Part shown: positions 9,340 to 20,714 of the stretch, in pieces
Position numbering within the stretch: the stretch's first letter is position 1
How the letters are laid out: the number at the start of each line of letters is the position of its first letter
IMG/VR virus record: IMGVR_UViG_3300030450_002913
Location: 1-20,714 of that record
Length of the DNA: 20,714 nucleotides
Strand: one strand, 5' to 3'
DNA from: a virus
Notes under the pieces: model-generated
What the model was told of the DNA's origin: nothing
Database searches by the model: none
Seen by the model: only the letters and a program-made list of their open reading frames with translations
Position numbers and translations under genes: made by a program

Positions 9340-9374
9340 CGATATGTAAACAATTATTACTATTAGGACGTATC

Positions 9375-9407
9375 GGGGTTTACTCCTATAGGTGGCGGAT
9401 ATATGTT
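9375..9407 (+). promoter_or_regulatory. Operator overlapping a promoter for the 81-aa gene
   Basis: The operator GGGGTTTACTCC (9375-9386) contains a -35-like TTTACT (9379-9384), followed 17 bases later by TATGTT (9402-9407) as -10. Transcription would start around 9414, ahead of the ribosome binding site at 9436-9441. It is one of five copies of the same operator. Confidence 0.55.
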
Positions 9408-9447
9408 TATAGAGCCGGAGACGGTACCACTAAACAAGGAGACTCAA

Positions 9448-9693
9448 ATGTCCTTTTCTCACAAAAACCCAGTCACCAATAAAGTCTGGAACCGTGAGCA
9501 ACTATTCGAAGCCCTCCAACTGGAGCAAGCCAAGAATAAAAAGAGCACCTCAGATTTAATTACCTGGGAAGCTCAAGTCAAAAACGTCCTACATCGCTGG
9601 GACAACCACGACGAAGCCTTTAACAATTTTGTTCAGGAAATCGTGGATGCAGGAAGATTTAGCCGCAAGGTGTTTGATTCCATTCTTGCTTAA
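9448..9693 (+). CDS. Small hypothetical protein under repressor control (81 aa)
   Basis: The start at ATG 9448 (MSFSHKNPVTNKVWNREQLF) is preferred over ATG 9403, because AAGGAGA lies 6 bases upstream and 9403 falls inside the -10 box. The protein is helical and soluble (EALQLEQAKNKKSTSDLITW, VLHRWDNHDEAFNNFVQEIV). It is a monocistronic unit: promoter/operator upstream, strong intrinsic terminator 9 bases downstream. Such isolated operator-controlled small genes in phages often encode regulators or host-takeover proteins; no family is recognised. Confidence 0.6.
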   Translation: MSFSHKNPVTNKVWNREQLFEALQLEQAKNKKSTSDLITWEAQVKNVLHRWDNHDEAFNNFVQEIVDAGRFSRKVFDSILA

Positions 9694-9873: not shown

Positions 9874-9938
9874 GAATTTGGAGAGTCGCTACGTCGACAT
9901 ATTACAGTATGTTAATTTTTTATATTCTGCCATACGTA

Positions 9939-9975
9939 GGGGTATACCCCGGTAATACAATATATATAGGCAGCA
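9939..9975 (+). promoter_or_regulatory. Perfectly palindromic operator with AT-rich promoter
   Basis: GGGGTATACCCC (9939-9950) is a perfect 12-bp palindrome and the most symmetric of the five operators. An AT-rich stretch (AATATATATAGG) follows at a distance fitting a -10 region, with TATACC inside the operator as a poor -35. It precedes the structured leader of the 62-aa gene. Confidence 0.5.
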
Positions 9976-10437: not shown

Positions 10438-10779
10438 CTATTCATCAACGGCGTCTGTTAGTAGTCGTGCGAATTGATCCACTGTCATCACCATACGAAA
10501 ATGCCCACCACGCCACCGAATCATTGATGCGGCATATTTCGCTTTAGCGTTGCGACGTTGAATCTCAATTTCTCTTGGCTTTTCTAAACATGCCTTTGAC
10601 TTGTCAGCCCAATCAGCAACTTGAATAACTAAATCAGAACAACCCTCTAATTCAATATCCCCTTCGTCATCAAATCGGCCAGCCCCTAGTTTTCGCCTCG
10701 CCTTCCAAGGTAGTTTTTCAGATAGCAATTCAGCGGCTTCTCTCTCCGCCTTATCGCCTTTATTTTTTTGACTGTTCAT
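10438..10779 (-). CDS. Holliday-junction-resolvase-like nuclease
   Basis: A 113-residue protein resembling the small phage resolvases of the PD-(D/E)XK superfamily. It has an N-terminal helix with the conserved Glu (NKGDKAEREAAELLSEKL), then RRKLGAGRFDDEGDIELEG with the acidic metal-binding cluster, then DLVIQVADWADK in place of the usual V-x-x-K strand. The rest (RRNAKAKYAASMIRWRGGHF) fits the core-fold ending. It would cut branched DNA during phage replication or packaging. It is the last gene of the leftward block and overlaps the upstream gene by 20 bases. Confidence 0.65.
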   Translation of the reverse strand: MNSQKNKGDKAEREAAELLSEKLPWKARRKLGAGRFDDEGDIELEGCSDLVIQVADWADKSKACLEKPREIEIQRRNAKAKYAASMIRWRGGHFRMVMTVDQFARLLTDAVDE

Positions 10780-12102: not shown

Positions 12103-12729
12103 TCAGAAAGGAAGTTGTTTGTCGAAGTAAATAGAACGGGCCGCTTCGTATGACGTCACACAATCAGTCGGGTCATATTCATTGGTCGTCGTCTCTTTAG
12201 GACTAACCCAATAGATCCGGCATGAATCAATTTCAATCTGTGGGTATTGCTGCCACAAAAGCGATAGATAGCCGCCTAATTGAGGTCGATGATTTGCTTT
12301 GCTGAACTTCTCGTTTTTAGTCTTGTAATCGCATAAAGCTATGCGCCCGTTTTCTTTGTGCTTAAGAAGCAAGTCAAGAGTGCCAGCAATATTAAAGCGG
12401 CGATCAATTACAGGAAATTCAACGGCCATAGGCTCCCAGCTTTTTATGTTGGGATAGGAAAGAAAACTATCAATCCAATCCTGGTATTTCAGGGATGTGC
12501 CAGCTTTGCCTGTTTTCCAGTATTCACAAACTGCGCTGTGAAATTCATCGCCTCTTTGCCTGGCCTCATCAAAACGGGAGTTCGCCAGAAAGTCCGACTT
12601 CTTCACTATGTCCGAGATACTTCTTGGAACGTATGCTTTCTTTTTCAGGTCGTAGTACTTGTGATACTTGGGCACGAACTCTAGAAATTTGTCCGGCATC
12701 AGCTTCTCCGGCATCGTCATCGTTATCAC
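12103..12729 (-). CDS. PD-(D/E)XK nuclease, RecB/Cas4-like
   Basis: About 208 residues from the proposed GTG at 12729, which has GGAGG (12744-12740) 10 bases upstream; ATGs at 12720, 12714 and 12699 are alternatives. Motifs in order: ARQRGDEFHSAVCEYW (RecB-type His), IAGTLDLLLKHKENGR (motif with the catalytic Asp), ALCDYKTKNEKFSK (D-x-K), and RPQLGGYLSLL (Q-x-x-x-Y-type helix). This is the exonuclease fold of phage recombination and replication modules and could pair with the ERF annealase. It overlaps the upstream gene by about 160 bases. Confidence 0.75.
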   Translation of the reverse strand: MITMTMPEKLMPDKFLEFVPKYHKYYDLKKKAYVPRSISDIVKKSDFLANSRFDEARQRGDEFHSAVCEYWKTGKAGTSLKYQDWIDSFLSYPNIKSWEPMAVEFPVIDRRFNIAGTLDLLLKHKENGRIALCDYKTKNEKFSKANHRPQLGGYLSLLWQQYPQIEIDSCRIYWVSPKETTTNEYDPTDCVTSYEAARSIYFDKQLPF

Positions 12730-12916
12730 GTAGCAAATTCCTCCAAGGGGTGAGTTTGATTTCTGGGTAATGTTTGGCCGCAAAATCGTAATTTTCTTGC
12801 CAGTGATTTGAAGGCGTATTTAAATCCTCGATTGTGATTTTTCCTGATTCGACCATTCTTTGAAGAACTTCCCTAGCTCCTTCGGGTGTGCCGATTGGCT
12901 CTAGTCGATTCTTCAT
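12569..12916 (-). CDS. Hypothetical protein with long overlap into the nuclease gene
   Basis: A 115-residue frame. Its first 62 residues look genuine (TPEGAREVLQRMVESGKITI, EDLNTPSNHWQENYDFAAKH, LTPWRNLLRD), matching a short 'IEDLd.PS......RNlLR' unit I associate with proteins beside phage replication genes. The remaining about 50 residues overlap the nuclease in another frame and are Arg/Ser rich, ending SGELPF. Either the tail is a real overlap or the gene was once shorter or fused. Start ATG 12916 overlaps the preceding stop by 4 bases. Confidence 0.5.
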   Translation of the reverse strand: MKNRLEPIGTPEGAREVLQRMVESGKITIEDLNTPSNHWQENYDFAAKHYPEIKLTPWRNLLRDNDDDAGEADAGQISRVRAQVSQVLRPEKESIRSKKYLGHSEEVGLSGELPF

Positions 12917-13269
12917 CGAACGGCCTCAAGTTCAAACTGAGGAGGTGTATGACCATGACGCCTATAGGTTTGGTCGCGCTCGTAGTTTTCTTTGACTCGC
13001 CTCAAGTACTTACCTTGAAGCACGCGGAAATACTTGCCAGGAAATTTGCCTTCTACGGCGGGTCTGTAAGTACAAAAAAATCCTTCTTCGTCATACATTC
13101 CTGTTTGGTAAGGGCCAGCCATGACATAACCCTGTAGTTCCCAATTTTTAGGTGATGGTTCTGAAGTGAGCTGATAGGTGGTCTGTTGCCCAGGTTTATA
13201 GGCCTTTGGAACCATTGGCCAAACGTATTGCCCAGCCTTTGAAGGGTCGTACAGTTTTTCCGTGTTCAT
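12913..13269 (-). CDS. Hypothetical protein (118 aa)
   Basis: A soluble, Tyr/Pro/Gly-rich protein (SKAGQYVWPMVPKAYKPGQQ, LQGYVMAGPYQTGMYDEEGF) followed by a basic helical part (GKYFRVLQGKYLRRVKENYE). Alternating short strands suggest a small beta domain with a basic helix. ATGA overlaps join it to genes on both sides. No family recognised; a replication-module accessory protein by position. Confidence 0.55.
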   Translation of the reverse strand: MNTEKLYDPSKAGQYVWPMVPKAYKPGQQTTYQLTSEPSPKNWELQGYVMAGPYQTGMYDEEGFFCTYRPAVEGKFPGKYFRVLQGKYLRRVKENYERDQTYRRHGHTPPQFELEAVR

Positions 13270-13883
13270 AGGACAGTGACTCCTGGGATAATTTCCTGCG
13301 GTTGCTCAACCGTAATGTCTTCGAGCCATAGGGCAAAACATTCATCTCTAAGCCATCTATGGCAGTCAGGAAAGGGTGCGCACCATGTGTCCTTCCCAAT
13401 CTTGCTGGCCTGATCTTTCACAGCCCTCTTAGCGGCTTCTATGAGGTTTTCAGCTTCCTCAGTTTTTAGAGCTTCTTTCCAAGCGGTTCTTGCTTTTGAT
13501 TTGGACTGATTGTGCGCTTTGCTGGGACTTGCTTGGTAGACCTCCCAGAAAACTTGGAAAGCTGGCGAATCTTTTTCAGCTACTTTTTTTGTTTCTTTAA
13601 GAAAGGCCTCGTGTTCTTTTGGATTGTGGCAAACGAAGTTCTCGGAGACAGGAGCAAGAAAAGTTTCTCTTCCTCTCATACTCTCTAACTCTTCAAAAGA
13701 ATTAGAAGAAGAAGAATATGAATAGCGGCCCGGGGGTCCGCTAATTGTGGCACTACTGTCAAGACCATTTATCGCATTTTCGATTAATTGGCTGAGAAAC
13801 GCTGTCTTGTTTAGGTAGTTGGGCTTTTGGGCTAATGCCTTCTGTAACACAGAGGAATCAACCCGTATCGATTCTGTGGTCAT
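13266..13883 (-). CDS. Phage replication protein with N-terminal RHH domain
   Basis: A 205-residue protein at the head of the leftward block. Residues 4-40 read ESIRVDSSVLQKALAQKPNY then KTAFLSQLIENAINGL, a ribbon-helix-helix pattern. A Ser-rich linker (SYSSSSNSFEELE) follows. Residues about 107-190 match the C-terminal domain of phage replication-initiation proteins: FQVFWEVYQASPSKAHNQSK, ARTAWKEALK, then WCAPFPDCHRWLRDECFALW ('FW..YP.k..K..A..aw..al ... p....wL....w'). It would bind the phage origin or recruit host helicase. The RHH could let it bind its own promoter next door. Start ATG 13883; weak ribosome site. Confidence 0.65.
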   Translation of the reverse strand: MTTESIRVDSSVLQKALAQKPNYLNKTAFLSQLIENAINGLDSSATISGPPGRYSYSSSSNSFEELESMRGRETFLAPVSENFVCHNPKEHEAFLKETKKVAEKDSPAFQVFWEVYQASPSKAHNQSKSKARTAWKEALKTEEAENLIEAAKRAVKDQASKIGKDTWCAPFPDCHRWLRDECFALWLEDITVEQPQEIIPGVTVL

Positions 13884-13930
13884 ACGCTACACATGGTGTT
13901 ACGTGGTCGTAGCAAGGATGCCTCACACAG

Positions 13931-13991
13931 TGACAAGTGTCAATACGAGCGAATAGCAAATATTTGCTATGTCTTAATATCTCGTTACTAT
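13931..13991. promoter_or_regulatory. Divergent control region with an 18-bp perfect palindrome
   Basis: ATAGCAAATATTTGCTAT at 13953-13970 is a perfect 18-bp palindrome. Beside it TGACA-AG-TGTCA (13931-13942) is a second inverted repeat. Rightward, TTGCTA (13964-13969, inside the palindrome) and TACTAT (13986-13991) with 16-base spacing could drive the 14018 gene. Leftward, TTGACA (13943-13938) is a perfect -35 but has no good -10 (CATCCT at 17 bases), hinting at activation or another sigma factor. A protein binding the palindrome would affect both directions. Confidence 0.6.
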
Positions 13992-14017: not shown

Positions 14018-14182
14018 ATGACCTCTCCCACCGAGGAACGTAAAAGGATTAAAGAATTACGAAAAGATCTCACTACCTGTCAGGATCCTTTTGATTTATT
14101 AGCCGAGTATTCCTACGAGAACGAAATGCTGCGAAAGCAAGTAAGAATACTTACACAAGGCGAAAAATGTTCATTCGACTAG
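14018..14182 (+). CDS. Small charged helical protein (54 aa)
   Basis: I chose ATG 14018 (MTSPTEERKRIKELRKDLTT), because the frame's first ATG at 13937 lies upstream of the promoter and reads through the palindrome. The protein is helical and charged (DPFDLLAEYSYENEMLRKQV). GAGG lies 4 bases before ATG. It sits between two control regions, where a Cro-like or antirepressor gene is often found, but no HTH is visible. Confidence 0.45.
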   Translation: MTSPTEERKRIKELRKDLTTCQDPFDLLAEYSYENEMLRKQVRILTQGEKCSFD

Positions 14183-14214: not shown

Positions 14215-14243
14215 TTGAACGTAGGAGTAAACCCCGTTAAGGT
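14215..14243 (+). promoter_or_regulatory. Operator in the spacer of the repressor promoter
   Basis: TTGAAC (14215-14220) as -35 and TAAGGT (14238-14243) as a weak -10, with the operator GGAGTAAACCCC (14224-14235) filling the 17-base spacer. This placement would allow autorepression of the HTH gene. CCTAC/GTAGG (14210-14214 with 14221-14225) flanks the -35 as an inverted repeat. Confidence 0.5.
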
Positions 14244-14276: not shown

Positions 14277-14519
14277 ATGGCTGCCCATAACCCGCCCGTT
14301 TCAGACGAGGCCGTTCAACTAGGTCAAGCATTTAAAACTTGGCGATTGTCAAACGGTCTTTCACACCAAGATCTACACAACTACGGTAAAGATCGAGGTG
14401 TCAAGCTCTACAACTCTCAAGTTGCATATTTTGAACGTGGGGTCTTAACCCCTCAACCAGGATTTTTTGTAGCACTTGCAAAATTAATGGAGGACCTTAA
14501 AAACGGAGGCCAGTCATGA
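14277..14519 (+). CDS. Cro/CI-type HTH repressor candidate
   Basis: An 80-residue protein that is essentially one XRE-family HTH domain: LGQAFKTWRLSNGLSHQDLH (helices 1-2), DRGVKLYNSQVAYFERGVLT (recognition helix and the following turn), PGFFVALAKLMEDL (last helix). There is no C-terminal LexA/CI peptidase domain, so induction would need another route. It sits downstream of an operator copy and between two regulated units, making it the best candidate for binding the GGGGTWNACYCC sites. Its stop overlaps the next gene (ATGA). Confidence 0.7.
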   Translation: MAAHNPPVSDEAVQLGQAFKTWRLSNGLSHQDLHNYGKDRGVKLYNSQVAYFERGVLTPQPGFFVALAKLMEDLKNGGQS

Positions 14520-15034: not shown

Positions 15035-15081
15035 TTTTTCGATACGCCCCCATATCTAGTGTCTGTCAATATCCCTGCGTA

Positions 15082-15114
15082 GGGGTTGACTCCTAGATCC
15101 AGAGTGATTATTAT
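15082..15114 (+). promoter_or_regulatory. Strong promoter with -35 inside an operator (ERF-sigma operon)
   Basis: GGGGTTGACTCC (15082-15093) is an operator copy whose centre is a near-consensus -35 TTGACT (15086-15091). TATTAT (15109-15114) follows after exactly 17 bases. It is the best sigma-70-type promoter in the window. The predicted start near 15121 leaves only a short leader before ATG 15135. Confidence 0.75.
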
Positions 15115-15134: not shown

Positions 15135-15350
15135 ATGCCAGAGAACCGAGAAGCTAACCCCCTTTTCGATCAGCTTCTTGCCATTCAAGAAAACGCTGCT
15201 CAAATTGTTGAAGGCGCTGAACAATCTTTTTGTTCTTCTATTGGTTTCATCTGTTGGGATGAATTAACCGAAGACGAAAGATGCCAAATCCATGAATGGC
15301 ATAAAACTCTTCAAAACGCTGTTAAAGCTCTTAGGGACATAGAAGAATGA
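15135..15350 (+). CDS. Hypothetical protein leading the ERF operon (71 aa)
   Basis: A small acidic helical protein (NPLFDQLLAIQENAAQIVEG, EDERCQIHEWHKTLQNAVKA). It is the first gene after the operator-promoter and overlaps the ERF start by 4 bases. It could be an ERF partner or a host-nuclease inhibitor by position, but no motif proves this. Confidence 0.55.
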   Translation: MPENREANPLFDQLLAIQENAAQIVEGAEQSFCSSIGFICWDELTEDERCQIHEWHKTLQNAVKALRDIEE

Positions 15351-15988
15351 CAAGCGAACTCACAAAAGCCCATGCTGCCTTTATTAAAGAGGTCGGCACT
15401 ATCGGCAAGGACGGCGATGCTCAATTTGGTAAGCACGCCACGCTACAAGGTGTTTTAGGTGTTATTAATCCCTCGTTATCTCGTCAGGGTTTATCGGTTC
15501 ACCAAGTCTTTGACTACACAGAAGACGGCAAAACTGTTTTAAGAACAATCCTTAGACATACAAGCGGAGAGGAAGTTGTTAGTTCGGCTTTGTTCCCGTC
15601 TACGTCAGGTCGTAATCCGCTACATGATTGGGGATCAAATGTCACATACATGAGGCGATTCAGCCTATTGGCGATTTTAGGGATCGCACCCGGAATAGAA
15701 GATAACGATGGCGATCATGCCACTGCACCTGAACCTGTTATTTCAAAGCCTGTAGTTACTACGCCTGCTCAACCGCAGCAAGATATAACTATCACAAATC
15801 CTCCTTTAGAACCCAACGACAGAAAAGAACTCTTGGACGTTTTGGCCAATCTCTACGGCGAAAACAAATCAAAATTTGATCAGCTCAATGTTGCATACAG
15901 AAAACAATTCCCTGATTGCAAAGACAAAATGAGCGATCACATCCAAGAACCAAAGCATCGTGACTTTATTTTCAGCTTTTTGAAATGA
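15347..15988 (+). CDS. erf: ERF-family single-strand annealing protein
   Basis: A 213-residue protein with the ERF fold signature: KAHAAFIKEVGTIGKDGDAQ, KHATLQGVLGVINPSLSRQG (the 'Y.....i......L...gl' helix), LRTILRHTSGEEVVSSALFP, then DWGSNVTYMRRFSLLAILGI (the conserved 'G...TY..RYal...lgi' helix) and EDNDGD. A Pro-rich linker leads to a C-terminal helical domain (PNDRKELLDVLANLYGENKS). It anneals complementary single strands during phage recombination or genome circularisation. It likely works with the RecB-like nuclease encoded leftward. ATGA overlaps on both sides. Confidence 0.85.
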   Translation: MTSELTKAHAAFIKEVGTIGKDGDAQFGKHATLQGVLGVINPSLSRQGLSVHQVFDYTEDGKTVLRTILRHTSGEEVVSSALFPSTSGRNPLHDWGSNVTYMRRFSLLAILGIAPGIEDNDGDHATAPEPVISKPVVTTPAQPQQDITITNPPLEPNDRKELLDVLANLYGENKSKFDQLNVAYRKQFPDCKDKMSDHIQEPKHRDFIFSFLK

Positions 15989-16242
15989 GTGATTCGGAAT
16001 TTAATGCTCAACAACAAAGAGATTCCATCAAGCGTAAAGGTGGAAAATTTCGTATCCCAGAGAGGAGCCGTCCTGAAGGTGTTAGCTATCAAGCCCATAA
16101 GAATCGCTATCTGGTCAGCGCAAAGTTGACCCAAACCAATTGGGAAGTTTTACGAGCTTGGCTTGTATCTAACAATCTCAACTACAACACAGGCTTAAAC
16201 CGCCTTATCGCTACCCATCCTGAACTAGAACAACATGGCTAA
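15985..16242 (+). CDS. Small basic hypothetical protein (85 aa)
   Basis: A basic protein (QQQRDSIKRKGGKFRIPERS) with a C-terminal helical part (LTQTNWEVLRAWLVSNNLNY, NTGLNRLIATHPEL). The second half resembles small helical units that dimerise or bind DNA ('s..NW..l..W...nn...s..LN.LI'), but this is not a firm family call. It overlaps ERF by 4 bases and the next gene by 8. Confidence 0.55.
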   Translation: MSDSEFNAQQQRDSIKRKGGKFRIPERSRPEGVSYQAHKNRYLVSAKLTQTNWEVLRAWLVSNNLNYNTGLNRLIATHPELEQHG

Positions 16243-16459
16243 TCCAAACCGCGAAAAAATCACTGGCCTTTGGGTCAGAGAGTGGGTTAATCCACAAGGC
16301 GAAACCGTTCGTTATATGACGGGCAAATCTGACGGCATGAGCTATTCGATTTGGCCTAATGGATTTAAAGAGAAAGAAACTGACCCAACTCATGTTCTGT
16401 TTAAAGAGCCTGCTGAATCTTTCAAGCCAGCTCCTAAAAAAGAAGATCTGCCTTTTTAA
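16235..16459 (+). CDS. Small protein with SSB-like acidic C-terminal tip
   Basis: A 74-residue protein: a short beta domain (KITGLWVREWVNPQGETVRY, YSIWPNGFKEKE) and a flexible Pro/Lys/Glu tail ending KKEDLPF. The last residues resemble the D-(I/L)-P-F tip by which single-strand DNA-binding proteins recruit repair enzymes. Its place between ERF and the sigma gene fits a recombination accessory role, possibly a small ssDNA-binding protein. The beta part is too short for a full OB fold. Confidence 0.55.
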   Translation: MANPNREKITGLWVREWVNPQGETVRYMTGKSDGMSYSIWPNGFKEKETDPTHVLFKEPAESFKPAPKKEDLPF

Positions 16460-17353
16460 ATGCCTGATGGTGTGGGCGCTTACCTATCCGAGATAGGTCG
16501 CATTCCTTTATTAACCAATTCCGAGGAAATCATTCTTGGGAATCAAGTCAAGCACTGGCAGGAAATAAAAGGCATAAAAGATCCCACACCTGAGCAACGA
16601 AAAATTATTAGACAGGGCAAGAAGGCAAAAGATCGGATGATTTCAGCCAACCTTCGCTTGGTCGTTCATATAGCGAAGCGTCACGTTAAGGAATCGATGA
16701 CTCACATGAGTCTTATGGATTTGGTGCAGGAAGGAACGATTGGCCTAAATCGTGGTATAGAAAAATTTGATCCATCACGCGGGTATAAGCTTTCAACCTA
16801 TTGCTATTGGTGGATAAAACAGGGCATAACCAGGGCAATAGGGAATCAAGAGCGTTCAATAAGACTTCCAGTCAATGCCATCGATGTTCAGCGCAGGATT
16901 ACTAAATATCTAGATTCTTTCAAACATGAGCATGGACGATTCCCAACACTTGAAGAGTGCGTAGAAGCTTCAAAGGTCACTAAGCCGACGCTTCGGGCTT
17001 ATATCGAACATTCAGAGAGGCCTATCAGTTTGGATCAGCTTGTTTGCCAAAATGGATCAGAAAGAATGGTAGATAGATCTTTACTTGAACTGATTGCATC
17101 AGAAGATCCATTACCAGAGGAAGATCTTGAATATCAAAGTTGTCTTGATCAGTTAGAAGCGTTGCTTTCGATTCTTCCTACTCGTGATCGTCAAATGCTT
17201 GAGCTTAGGTATGGAATCAGAAATGGAGGCGAAAAGATGACCTATGCGCAGGTGGGAGAGAAGATGAAAGTCAGTAGAGAACGGGTTAGACAGATAGAAA
17301 TGAAAAGCCTTAGACAGATGCGTAAAAAGATTGATGGCAAGGCTTTTCCGTAA
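16460..17353 (+). CDS. Sigma-70-family sigma factor (cyanobacterial group 2-like)
   Basis: A 297-residue sigma factor with all DNA-binding regions and no region 1.1: region 1.2 (VGAYLSEIGRIPLLTNSEE, residues 5-23), region 2 (SANLRLVVHIAKRHV; LMDLVQEGTIGLNRGIEKFD; LSTYCYWWIKQGITRAIGNQ, residues about 62-130), region 3, and region 4 (LPTRDRQMLELRYGIRNGG; KMKVSRERVRQIEMKSLRQM, residues 239-288). Architecture matches cyanobacterial group 2 factors, not the small T4 gp55 type. ATG abuts the previous TAA. As last gene of the operator-controlled ERF operon it probably redirects host RNA polymerase after induction. Confidence 0.9.
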   Translation: MPDGVGAYLSEIGRIPLLTNSEEIILGNQVKHWQEIKGIKDPTPEQRKIIRQGKKAKDRMISANLRLVVHIAKRHVKESMTHMSLMDLVQEGTIGLNRGIEKFDPSRGYKLSTYCYWWIKQGITRAIGNQERSIRLPVNAIDVQRRITKYLDSFKHEHGRFPTLEECVEASKVTKPTLRAYIEHSERPISLDQLVCQNGSERMVDRSLLELIASEDPLPEEDLEYQSCLDQLEALLSILPTRDRQMLELRYGIRNGGEKMTYAQVGEKMKVSRERVRQIEMKSLRQMRKKIDGKAFP

Positions 17354-17357
17354 TTCC

Positions 17358-17378
17358 TAGGCCGCTTCTAGGCCGCTT
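17358..17378. repeat. Left direct repeats, putative integrase arm sites
   Basis: Two copies of TAGGCCGCTT (17358-17367 and 17369-17378), 11 bases apart start to start, one helical turn. The same octamer pair with the same 11-base period recurs on the other side of the tRNA fragment. Paired arm-type repeats flanking a core are typical of tyrosine-integrase attP sites. Confidence 0.65.
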
Positions 17379-17436
17379 ATGGAAAGGCTGATTTTAATTA
17401 TCCCTTTCCCTGATTAGCTTTTAGCCTTGTAGCAAT

Positions 17437-17480
17437 AGTGCTCCCAAAGCACCCGCGCTACCAAGCTGCGCCACGCCCCG
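17437..17480 (-). other. 5' half of tRNA-Pro(UGG): attP core
   Basis: On the minus strand the sequence begins CGGGGCGTGGCGCAGCTTGG and continues through the D stem GCGC/GCGC and the anticodon arm GGTGC-TTTGGGA-GCACT, with anticodon TGG. After 44 bases the match stops: no T arm or 3' acceptor strand follows. It is therefore a tRNA-Pro fragment, not a working gene, and the likely identity block for integration into host tRNA-Pro. Homology covers the 5' half, whereas most tRNA-targeting integrases carry the 3' half. Confidence 0.75.
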
Positions 17481-17554
17481 TTACTACTTTTTTAGTCTCT
17501 CACTAGCTTTGTACTTTAGCCTACCTATGCACGCCTGGGCATACATGGTATTCT

Positions 17555-17573
17555 TAGGCCGCTGTTAGGCCGC
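17555..17573. repeat. Right direct repeats, putative integrase arm sites
   Basis: TAGGCCGC at 17555-17562 and again at 17566-17573, the same octamer and 11-base period as the left pair. The right pair ends 7 bases before the integrase start, so integrase binding could also repress its own gene. Confidence 0.65.
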
Positions 17574-19360: not shown

Positions 19361-19570
19361 ATGGCCATTAAATGGGTTACTCAAAGATCAGCAAGTGACG
19401 CTTTGGGGGTTAGTGAATCAACCCTTCAAAAATGGCGTAATAAAGATAAAATCTTGGTCATGGGAAAACATTTCAGGCGTACGACCCCAACCAACCAGAA
19501 ACTTCTATATGACTTAGAAGCCTGTGAAAAGACCTTGCATCAGCTCTGTACAACTCCATTAGAAGTTTGA
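19361..19570 (+). CDS. Excisionase-like MerR/AlpA-type HTH protein
   Basis: A 69-residue protein: WVTQRSASDALGVSESTLQK then WRNKDKILVMGKHFRRT, the winged HTH layout of small excisionase-type DNA-binding proteins (recognition helix around VSESTLQKW, wing with GKHFRR), and a C-terminal helix (LLYDLEACEKTLHQL). Next to an integrase, such a protein most likely directs excision or regulates int. It starts just after the inverted repeats at 19311-19358. A plain transcription regulator is the alternative. Confidence 0.65.
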   Translation: MAIKWVTQRSASDALGVSESTLQKWRNKDKILVMGKHFRRTTPTNQKLLYDLEACEKTLHQLCTTPLEV

Positions 19571-19639: not shown

Positions 19640-19825
19640 ATGACTACTCCATTCTCTGCGGATGAGTGGCGCAATATTTTTCGAGGCTATAAAGATACCC
19701 CTGAAAATCAAATGGGAATCGAGATTTTGCGGCAACACCTCATCGAAGACGATGCTCAACTTCTTACTTCTGAGTCAACATGGTATAAGCACTACAAGCG
19801 CAATCCAAACGCCTATTTCCCATGA
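19640..19825 (+). CDS. Hypothetical protein (61 aa) coupled to the tail gene
   Basis: A small soluble protein (MTTPFSADEWRNIFRGYKDT, GIEILRQHLIEDDAQLLTSE, ending YKHYKRNPNAYFP). Acidic helical middle and basic C terminus. ATGA overlap with the next gene indicates co-translation. It opens the virion gene block; no domain recognised. Confidence 0.5.
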   Translation: MTTPFSADEWRNIFRGYKDTPENQMGIEILRQHLIEDDAQLLTSESTWYKHYKRNPNAYFP

Positions 19826-20568
19826 TCGTTTTAGACGTAAAAAGCGAATTGCCAAAAGGAGTGAAATGGACAAACGAAATGACAAAACAACTGCCATTTA
19901 GTGCTTCTCAGGCCTTGAACGCAACGGTAGGAAATAGAGCAGGCATTAATCAATTTCCTGAAGCCTCAAGTAAAGGGATATTGGCTGATATGAAACGCTT
20001 GATGAATAGAAACCTAGATAGGCCTAAAAAACAAACAGCAGAAGGCTTTTATGCAACGACTGCTAAGAAGACCGCTTTGTTCGTAAAAATCACGCCTAAA
20101 AACAGACCTTGGGATAGGAATAGATACATTGTTGGCAATATTGAGGGTGGAGATAGGCCCAATAAATGGATTGAATTAGAGGCCAGAAAATTAGGCAGTA
20201 TTCCAAGCAATATTTCTTTAGTACCTACATACAATGTCAAGCGTGATAATAAGCATGGCAATCCAAAAAGAACACAAATAAGGAATGCGTTTAAAGACGT
20301 TGGTAGTGGTAAGACATTTATAGGAAAGCCAGAGAACTCAACACGTCCTTTCGGTATTTACTCAGTAGCCAAGACAGGGAGCCTTGAGGCATTGTTCGTT
20401 GCTAAATCTTCTACTCAATACCCAACACTCTTGGCAGGTATGGAAAACTATGCCTACTCAAGAGCTAGTAGAACCTTTGGCCCTTATCTACGCAGAGCAC
20501 TTGAAAGAAATGTCAACGCAAGGATTAAGCAGGGGAAAGCTGACCTCAAAGCTGGATTATTCAGTTAG
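19822..20568 (+). CDS. Minor tail protein Z-like (neck/tail completion) protein
   Basis: A 248-residue protein. The N terminus LPFSASQALNATVGNRAG matches the 'pfa.a.ALN.tA' opening of the phage minor tail protein Z family. Later segments include TAEGFYATTAKKTALFVKIT, basic loops (KRDNKHGNPKRTQIRNAF), and a C-terminal helical region (FGPYLRRALERNVNARIKQG). Length and layout fit that family, which acts at tail completion or head-tail joining in siphoviruses. It supports the presence of a full virion module to the right of the window. Confidence 0.5.
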   Translation: MIVLDVKSELPKGVKWTNEMTKQLPFSASQALNATVGNRAGINQFPEASSKGILADMKRLMNRNLDRPKKQTAEGFYATTAKKTALFVKITPKNRPWDRNRYIVGNIEGGDRPNKWIELEARKLGSIPSNISLVPTYNVKRDNKHGNPKRTQIRNAFKDVGSGKTFIGKPENSTRPFGIYSVAKTGSLEALFVAKSSTQYPTLLAGMENYAYSRASRTFGPYLRRALERNVNARIKQGKADLKAGLFS

Positions 20569-20714
20569 GCACTAGATGTGGAATGCCTATTCTCAATAAG
20601 ATTTGCACGTTAAATAAATATGCCTCAGATCTTGTAGACATTTAGATGTATTCCTTGAGATCCCTTGGTATAACTGGGTCCTTCTCTGTAAATAGCCCGT
20701 GGGTCATCCGAAGG
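20569..20714. other. Right end: no clear gene
   Basis: Two short frames reach the window edge: plus from ATG 20646 (MYSLRSLGITGSFSVNSPW) and minus ending at TGA 20625 (reading ...AIYREGPSYTKGSQGIHLN). Neither has a ribosome site or recognisable family. One may be the edge of a real gene; the window stops too early to decide. Confidence 0.25.

Follow-up and report, generated by a model that had tools for sequence, protein, structure and literature searches.

A σ factor encoded by a lineage of cyanophages, represented here by a 297-codon gene that comes last in an early operon, probably serves as the switch from early to late phage transcription. In the reading that we favor, release of repression at the promoter of the ERF operon would allow a host SigA-type polymerase to transcribe that operon, of which the σ factor would be the final product; the σ factor would then bind host core polymerase and direct it to promoters of the phage, among which those of the adjacent late operon are the most likely targets. 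This late operon would be read downstream of the integrase gene and through cos into the genes for terminase, portal, and tail proteins. The σ factor gene is phage-specific, shows no disruption, and has been kept by purifying selection in relatives; the -35 element of its operon promoter lies inside an operator, and the late operon adjoins it. The DNA analyzed (the window) is the IMG/VR virus record IMGVR_UViG_3300030450_002913, 20,714 bases in length, which probably represents a temperate virus of marine picocyanobacteria; its features are collected in Table 1.

Little is known about the temperate phages that infect marine Synechococcus and Prochlorococcus, and this lineage offers a testable circuit that would lead from operator to early operon, σ factor, and late operon. 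The original prediction of a phage-encoded, group 2-like σ factor in a putatively repressor-controlled early operon of a probably temperate cyanophage is supported by the analyses reported here. What is fresh is the operator-over-promoter control found in eight contigs, the persistence of the σ factor gene in a relative that has lost its integrase, the cos terminus, and the position of attP.

Table 1. Features of the window, with the evidence on which each assignment is based.
Feature	Position	Strand	Evidence
Operator CGGGGTTTACTCCT 5' of ORF 9403-9693	9374-9387	.	Palindrome search
Operator AGGGGTATACCCCG	9938-9951	.	Palindrome search
RusA, leftward operon	10438-10779	-	PHROGs
Exonuclease, leftward operon	12103-12783	-	PHROGs
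Replication initiation protein, first gene of leftward operon	13266-13883	-	PHROGs
Leftward promoter of replication operon, TTGACA-17-CATCCT	13915-13943	-	Orthologous promoters in G302, G303, G304, G305
Operator AGGAGTAAACCCCG 5' of HTH gene	14223-14236	.	Palindrome search
80-aa helix-turn-helix (HTH)-like protein, candidate repressor	14277-14519	+	Conserved in relatives
Operator AGGGGTTGACTCCT, 14-bp palindrome over -35 of ERF-σ promoter	15081-15094	.	Palindrome search; same arrangement in 8/8 contigs
Rest of early operon: 15135-15350, ERF 15347-15988, 15985-16242, 16235-16459	15135-16459	+	ORF table; Pfam ERF; order kept in relatives
σ70 family (group 2-like) σ factor, 297 aa	16460-17353	+	Pfam/PHROG/NCBIfam; virus-only clade; same slot in relatives
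Left integrase arm sites, tandem TAGGCCGC	17353-17376	+	Same in G302
attP core (45 bp), exact match to tRNA-Pro(UGG) 5' half of picocyanobacteria	17436-17480	-	Sequence match
Right integrase arm sites, tandem TAGGCCGC	17550-17573	+	Same in G302
Tyrosine integrase, 406 aa	17580-18800	+	PHROG_1, E 3.2e-11; 81% in G302; 46-53% in Cyanobiaceae tRNA-Pro elements
69-aa HTH-like protein	19361-19570	+	Travels with integrase
Two genes opening late operon: 61 aa; 248 aa, PHROG_1924 minor tail protein	19640-20568	+	Profile match; order in relatives
Right end of virion DNA, putative cos-type terminus GTGGGTCATCCGAAGG	20699-20714	+	Shared ends of contigs

The σ factor and its viral relatives

The σ factor gene is open from ATG to stop without interruption, and the regions 1.2 to 4.2 that had been claimed as intact were recovered with Pfam as region 1.2 (residues 3-33, E 1.5e-8), region 2 (residues 60-132, E 2.8e-17), region 3 (residues 146-200, E 1.8e-5, scoring 25.2 bits where the cut-off is 25.3, i.e., 0.1 bit below), and region 4 (residues 235-289, E 2.5e-15). 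The protein matches the profile for phage RNA polymerase σ factors (PHROG_351, E 1.6e-68); with 290.4 bits against a curated cut-off of 384.5 for NCBIfam TIGR02997 (cyanobacterial RpoD/SigA), it is related to this subfamily, but not a member by the score rule. Its classification as group 2-type agrees with the presence of regions 1.2, 2, 3, and 4, with the conservation of -10 and -35 contact residues (see below), and with the start of region 1.2 at residue 3, with no long region 1.1 extension at the N-terminus; solved cyanobacterial SigA proteins can be aligned over its length. The presence of full regions 1.2-4 indicates that it is not of the T4 gp55 type, i.e., a small, truncated, region 2-like late σ factor that works with the sliding clamp and gp33.

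While a scan of viral contigs with the single σ factor sequence yielded no relatives, use of an alignment of phage σ factors as the query instead yielded at least 570 candidate viral stretches. Among the matches listed, the nearest viral σ factors were those of L229 (60% identity), L230 (54%), L231 (52%), and L232 (51%). Cyanobiaceae SigA and group 2 σ factors share regions 1.2-4.2 and most promoter-contact residues with the window protein, but are at most 47% identical to it among the matches listed for 300 Cyanobiaceae genomes and fall in a separate clade. Two trees were built, one with LG+G4 and 53 rows and one with LG+C20 and 43 rows after removal of long branches; both grouped the window σ factor with L229-L232, which represent four syntenic contigs, with support of 99/96 and outside the host group 1/2 σ factors. 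The LG+G4 tree also supported (95/89) a broader clade that comprised 14 rows, all viral, but this clade was not resolved in the LG+C20 tree. The σ factors of S-CBS1, S-CBS3, and KBS-S-2A form a separate viral clade.

Phylogeny had been set in advance as the analysis that might reveal the gene to be recently copied from a host and to lack phage relatives. A recent host copy is rejected on the basis of the identities (60% to the nearest virus versus 47% to the nearest host among the matches listed for 300 Cyanobiaceae genomes) together with the virus-only clade.

Early operon, integration module, and late operon

Genes in the interval 15135-17353 run rightward, each overlapping or abutting the next; the σ factor gene comes last, with its ATG directly after the stop of the preceding gene, which bears out its predicted position at the end of an operon with the ERF recombinase gene (Pfam ERF, E 1.2e-10). 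The operon promoter, TTGACT-17-TATTAT (15086-15114; -35 starting at 15086 and -10 ending at 15114), contains an operator copy, as had also been proposed: the palindrome AGGGGTWWACCCCT, with up to two mismatches, is found four times in the window, including the 15081 site, versus 0.23 expected from shuffles, and six times in G303 versus 0.13 expected. In all eight lineage contigs examined, which span A+T-rich marine (40-43% G+C) to G+C-rich (58-62%) genomes, the palindrome overlaps TTGAC upstream of the ERF operon. The 80-aa HTH-like protein, whose gene has an operator (14223) in its promoter region, is the best candidate for, and the probable, repressor acting on the palindromic operators; while the operators are supported statistically by their copy numbers versus shuffles, the protein, for which Pfam and NCBIfam gave no family match above cut-off, is a candidate repressor only. 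A perfect 18-bp palindrome, ATAGCAAATATTTGCTAT, is located between the divergent promoters (13953-13970), and a related box, TTGCTATTGCTA(C/T)GTG, is found 5' of the 19361 gene in the window and in G302; these may represent the site of a second regulator.

The inference of a temperate lifestyle is supported by the integrase gene and by an attP core equal to one half of a picocyanobacterial tRNA-Pro; among the matches listed, this core matches the tRNA-Pro 5' half in more than 80 Cyanobiaceae-rich loci. The 69-aa HTH-like protein is probably excisionase-like. Because attP is located between the σ factor and integrase genes, the map implies that an integrated prophage of this lineage would carry the σ operon at one end and the integrase/late operon at the other, such that integration parts the σ factor gene from the integrase and late genes. 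In addition, after integration the phage would have to supply the tRNA 5' half as well as its promoter. Related integrases in Cyanobiaceae genomes adjoin the anticodon-to-3' half of tRNA-Pro, while the window attP is the 5' half. Widespread integrative elements at tRNA-Pro(UGG) were observed in Cyanobiaceae genomes (L187-L206), with integrases 46-53% identical to that of the phage and often with a small 19361-like HTH gene. Among 20 Cyanobiaceae integrase loci read, none represented a lysogen of this lineage with the σ factor gene; all were other tRNA-Pro elements.

Whole-window megablast against isolated phages gave no match. The closest relative among the matches listed, IMGVR_UViG_3300020445_000062 (L229/G302), shares 24 genes in order, the integrase (81%), the σ factor (60%), and the attP arms and core, but has extra ORFs and an H at the T440 position of its σ factor. 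The gene order of the lineage is HTH, 14516-like, ERF, 15985-like, σ factor, integrase, 19361-like, 19640-like, and tail-type gene. The σ factor slot after ERF is kept across the lineage, beside genes for either tyrosine or serine recombinases; in the G+C-rich contigs G306 and G307, the two that were read past the σ factor gene, a serine-recombinase-like ORF, assigned by reading the sequence, replaces the integrase. In G304 (L355), the sister of G303, the integrase gene is gone, while the arm repeats, a truncated 19361-like gene, and the σ factor gene remain; the scar of this deletion is found at 14040-14170, between the σ factor gene and the 19640-like gene, and marks a recent temperate-to-virulent change within the lineage. 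With a σ factor dN/dS of 0.087 between G304 and G303, retention under purifying selection in a phage without integrase argues that the σ factor is selected for something other than integration. Contig G173:C20 has ERF, RusA, exonuclease, and integrase genes without a σ factor gene, and G309 and G310 carry related late genes, also without one.

On the circular map, the late operon extends from approximately 19640 through cos and, downstream of the integrase gene, adjoins the σ factor region. The right end of the window is best read as a cos-type terminus of virion DNA, since independent contigs stop on one base and relatives continue into terminase- and portal-like genes. The window, G303, L383, L384, L385, L394, L397, L428, L435, L455, and L471 share the final base after GGGTCATCCGAAGG, while L399, L382, and L386 extend beyond it into a small HTH gene and a large terminase-like gene, followed in L399 and L386 by a portal-like gene (all assigned by reading the sequence); the order after cos in L399 is terS, terL, portal. 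The conserved cos-type terminus is a mark of this phage group.

Promoter specificity and alternative roles

Promoter contacts were compared using the residue numbering and contact roles of Escherichia coli σ70. By alignment, the window σ factor retains T429, Y430, W433, W434, Q437, T440, and R441 in region 2.3/2.4 as well as R584, E585, R588, and Q589 in region 4.2, and carries the changes F427L, A431C, and R436K at positions that are invariant in 58 host σ factors. Because the contact residues are mostly host-like, ordinary TTGACA/TATAAT-like promoters are predicted as its targets. The proposal of a shared non-standard promoter is weakened by the same finding, as nearly all region 2.4/4.2 contacts are host-like, even though a C at -12 is constant in the 13943-type promoters discussed below. 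Comparison by eye of the intergenic regions 5' of the late genes in the window, G302, G303, and G304 did not reveal a convincing -35/-10 pair for a shared late promoter; the shared blocks were gene starts only. A generic σ70 promoter scan gave 20 matches versus 36.8 in shuffles, i.e., fewer than chance, and hence carries no weight alone.

The early-to-late switch is favored by the intact domains, the virus-only clade, the fixed slot after ERF, the operator over the -35 element (8/8), the retention in G304, the late operon that starts directly afterward, and the contact residues kept; in S-CBS1, KBS-S-2A, and S-LBS1 as well, the σ factor gene is found close to where the early module ends and next to late genes. 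Against it counts that no late promoter motif emerged and that G309 and G310 have related late genes without a σ factor gene, so these late genes can be expressed without a σ factor of their own. In addition, host-like specificity residues mean that these promoters could be read by host SigA as well, and the gain from an own σ factor is thus unproven. The host-like -35 and -10 contacts would also fit a σ factor that acts mainly on host promoters, as an auxiliary gene that reprograms metabolism or sustains transcription during infection rather than as a phage gene switch; according to the summary of Sawa 2019 in a review (PMC10452541), the S-CBS2 and S-CBS3 σ factors, when expressed in S. elongatus, changed metabolism, with altered growth and acetyl-CoA levels. 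We consider this role unlikely, however, as a phage regulator better fits the fixed location of the gene, where early and late genes meet, and its control by a presumed repressor, both seen throughout the lineage.

The σ factor might instead feed back on early or middle genes and boost middle gene expression, for example from the leftward promoter at 13943, which had been proposed as a possible target. As initially described, this promoter has a perfect -35 (TTGACA) and no standard -10, with CATCCT 17 nt on, but the idea of a non-standard promoter is weakened, since it feeds replication and recombination genes rather than virion genes and takes an ordinary TTGACA-16/17-CATNNT form in relatives. 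Across the five sequences, the -35 is TTGACA or TTGACT, the spacing is 16-17 nt, the -10 elements of the relatives are CATTAT, CATACT, CATACT, and CATATT, and C is found at -12 in all; host SigA could read such a promoter. Feedback would be consistent with this constant C and with the replacement of T440, which faces -12, in four of the five clade σ factors, compared to its retention in 56 of 58 host σ factors; the replacement may relax or shift -12 recognition in these four members. The window's own σ factor, however, is the one that keeps T440, the pattern was noticed after the fact in five sequences, and an operator is located near the 13943-type promoter in G303, as expected for an early host SigA promoter, which together make feedback distinctly unlikely.

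With regard to -10 elements, CATAGTAA is enriched in G303 (5 copies versus 0.5 expected), G304 (6 versus 0.3), and G305 (3 versus 0.2), and occurs twice in the window, where 0.5 copies are expected; G302 has a single copy (expectation 1.3), and the σ-less G309 and G310 have none. It is a possible -10 element that was picked after the data had been seen and is offered as a lead only. Very doubtful, in our view, is a broader scheme in which a clade σ factor with shifted -12 preference (T440 replaced in 4/5) serves phage promoters with the -10 CATAGT(AA) or CATNNT, such that one repressor-controlled σ factor would move the phage out of lysogeny and into the lytic cycle. Finally, viruses acquired σ factor genes more than once, as illustrated by the L238-like group inside a clade of host group 2 factors. 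Nevertheless, a host-derived passenger (moron) without a regulatory role in the phage is highly improbable and largely refuted by conservation, given that the viral clade is old, that purifying selection is strong, and that the gene keeps its slot and persists where the integrase has been lost.

Known cyanophage σ factors

The claim that a group 2-like σ factor gives cyanophages a novel route to the takeover of transcription did not hold, as P-SS2, S-CBS1, S-CBS3, KBS2A, and S-LBS1 already carry such factors. According to a review, 65 of the 153 cyanophage genomes considered encode σ factors (PMC10452541). The window σ factor is a well-conserved further case of σ factor genes known in related cyanophages. 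Prochlorococcus siphovirus P-SS2, described in 2009, is likewise an integrase-bearing marine cyanosiphovirus with a group 2-type σ70 gene (ORF 113) in its replication region, and its authors expected σ70 promoter use (PMC2784084); however, its σ factor is 27% identical to that of the window, its genome is far larger, and it also has a group 3 σ factor, an attP at tRNA-Met, and no identified repressor. S-CBS1 and S-CBS3 are annotated with an RpsD4 "group 2" σ factor and KBS-S-2A with RpoD, and a group 2-like σ factor has been reported for KBS2A (PMC3751600). These proteins resemble the window σ factor in domains and length; in S-CBS1 and KBS-S-2A the gene closes the early module and borders late genes, and S-CBS1 and S-CBS3 have packaging genes of the lambda type. 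However, the proteins are 37-39% identical to the window σ factor and belong to the separate viral clade, in phages with no annotated integrase and without a similar ERF operon. The freshwater Synechococcus phage S-LBS1, reported in 2018, is a cyanosiphovirus that also combines a group 2-like σ factor with an integrase (PMC6157547) and a single-strand annealing protein; by contrast, its σ factor is 34% identical, with a diverged -35 recognition helix, and its integrase is located elsewhere in the genome. Cyanosiphoviruses have thus long used σ factors, under selection and in several separate virus lineages, rather than having copied them recently from a host.

A third viral group of σ factors, typified by L238, is nested in a host group 2 clade and represents a later capture from hosts. 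With 51 of the 80 contigs kept after 70% clustering, it is a large marine virus group with a host-derived group 2 σ factor in which -35 recognition residues are altered; megablast of these contigs against isolated phages gave no match. In the 65 remaining viral σ factors, Q589T was found in 54 and E585D in 55.
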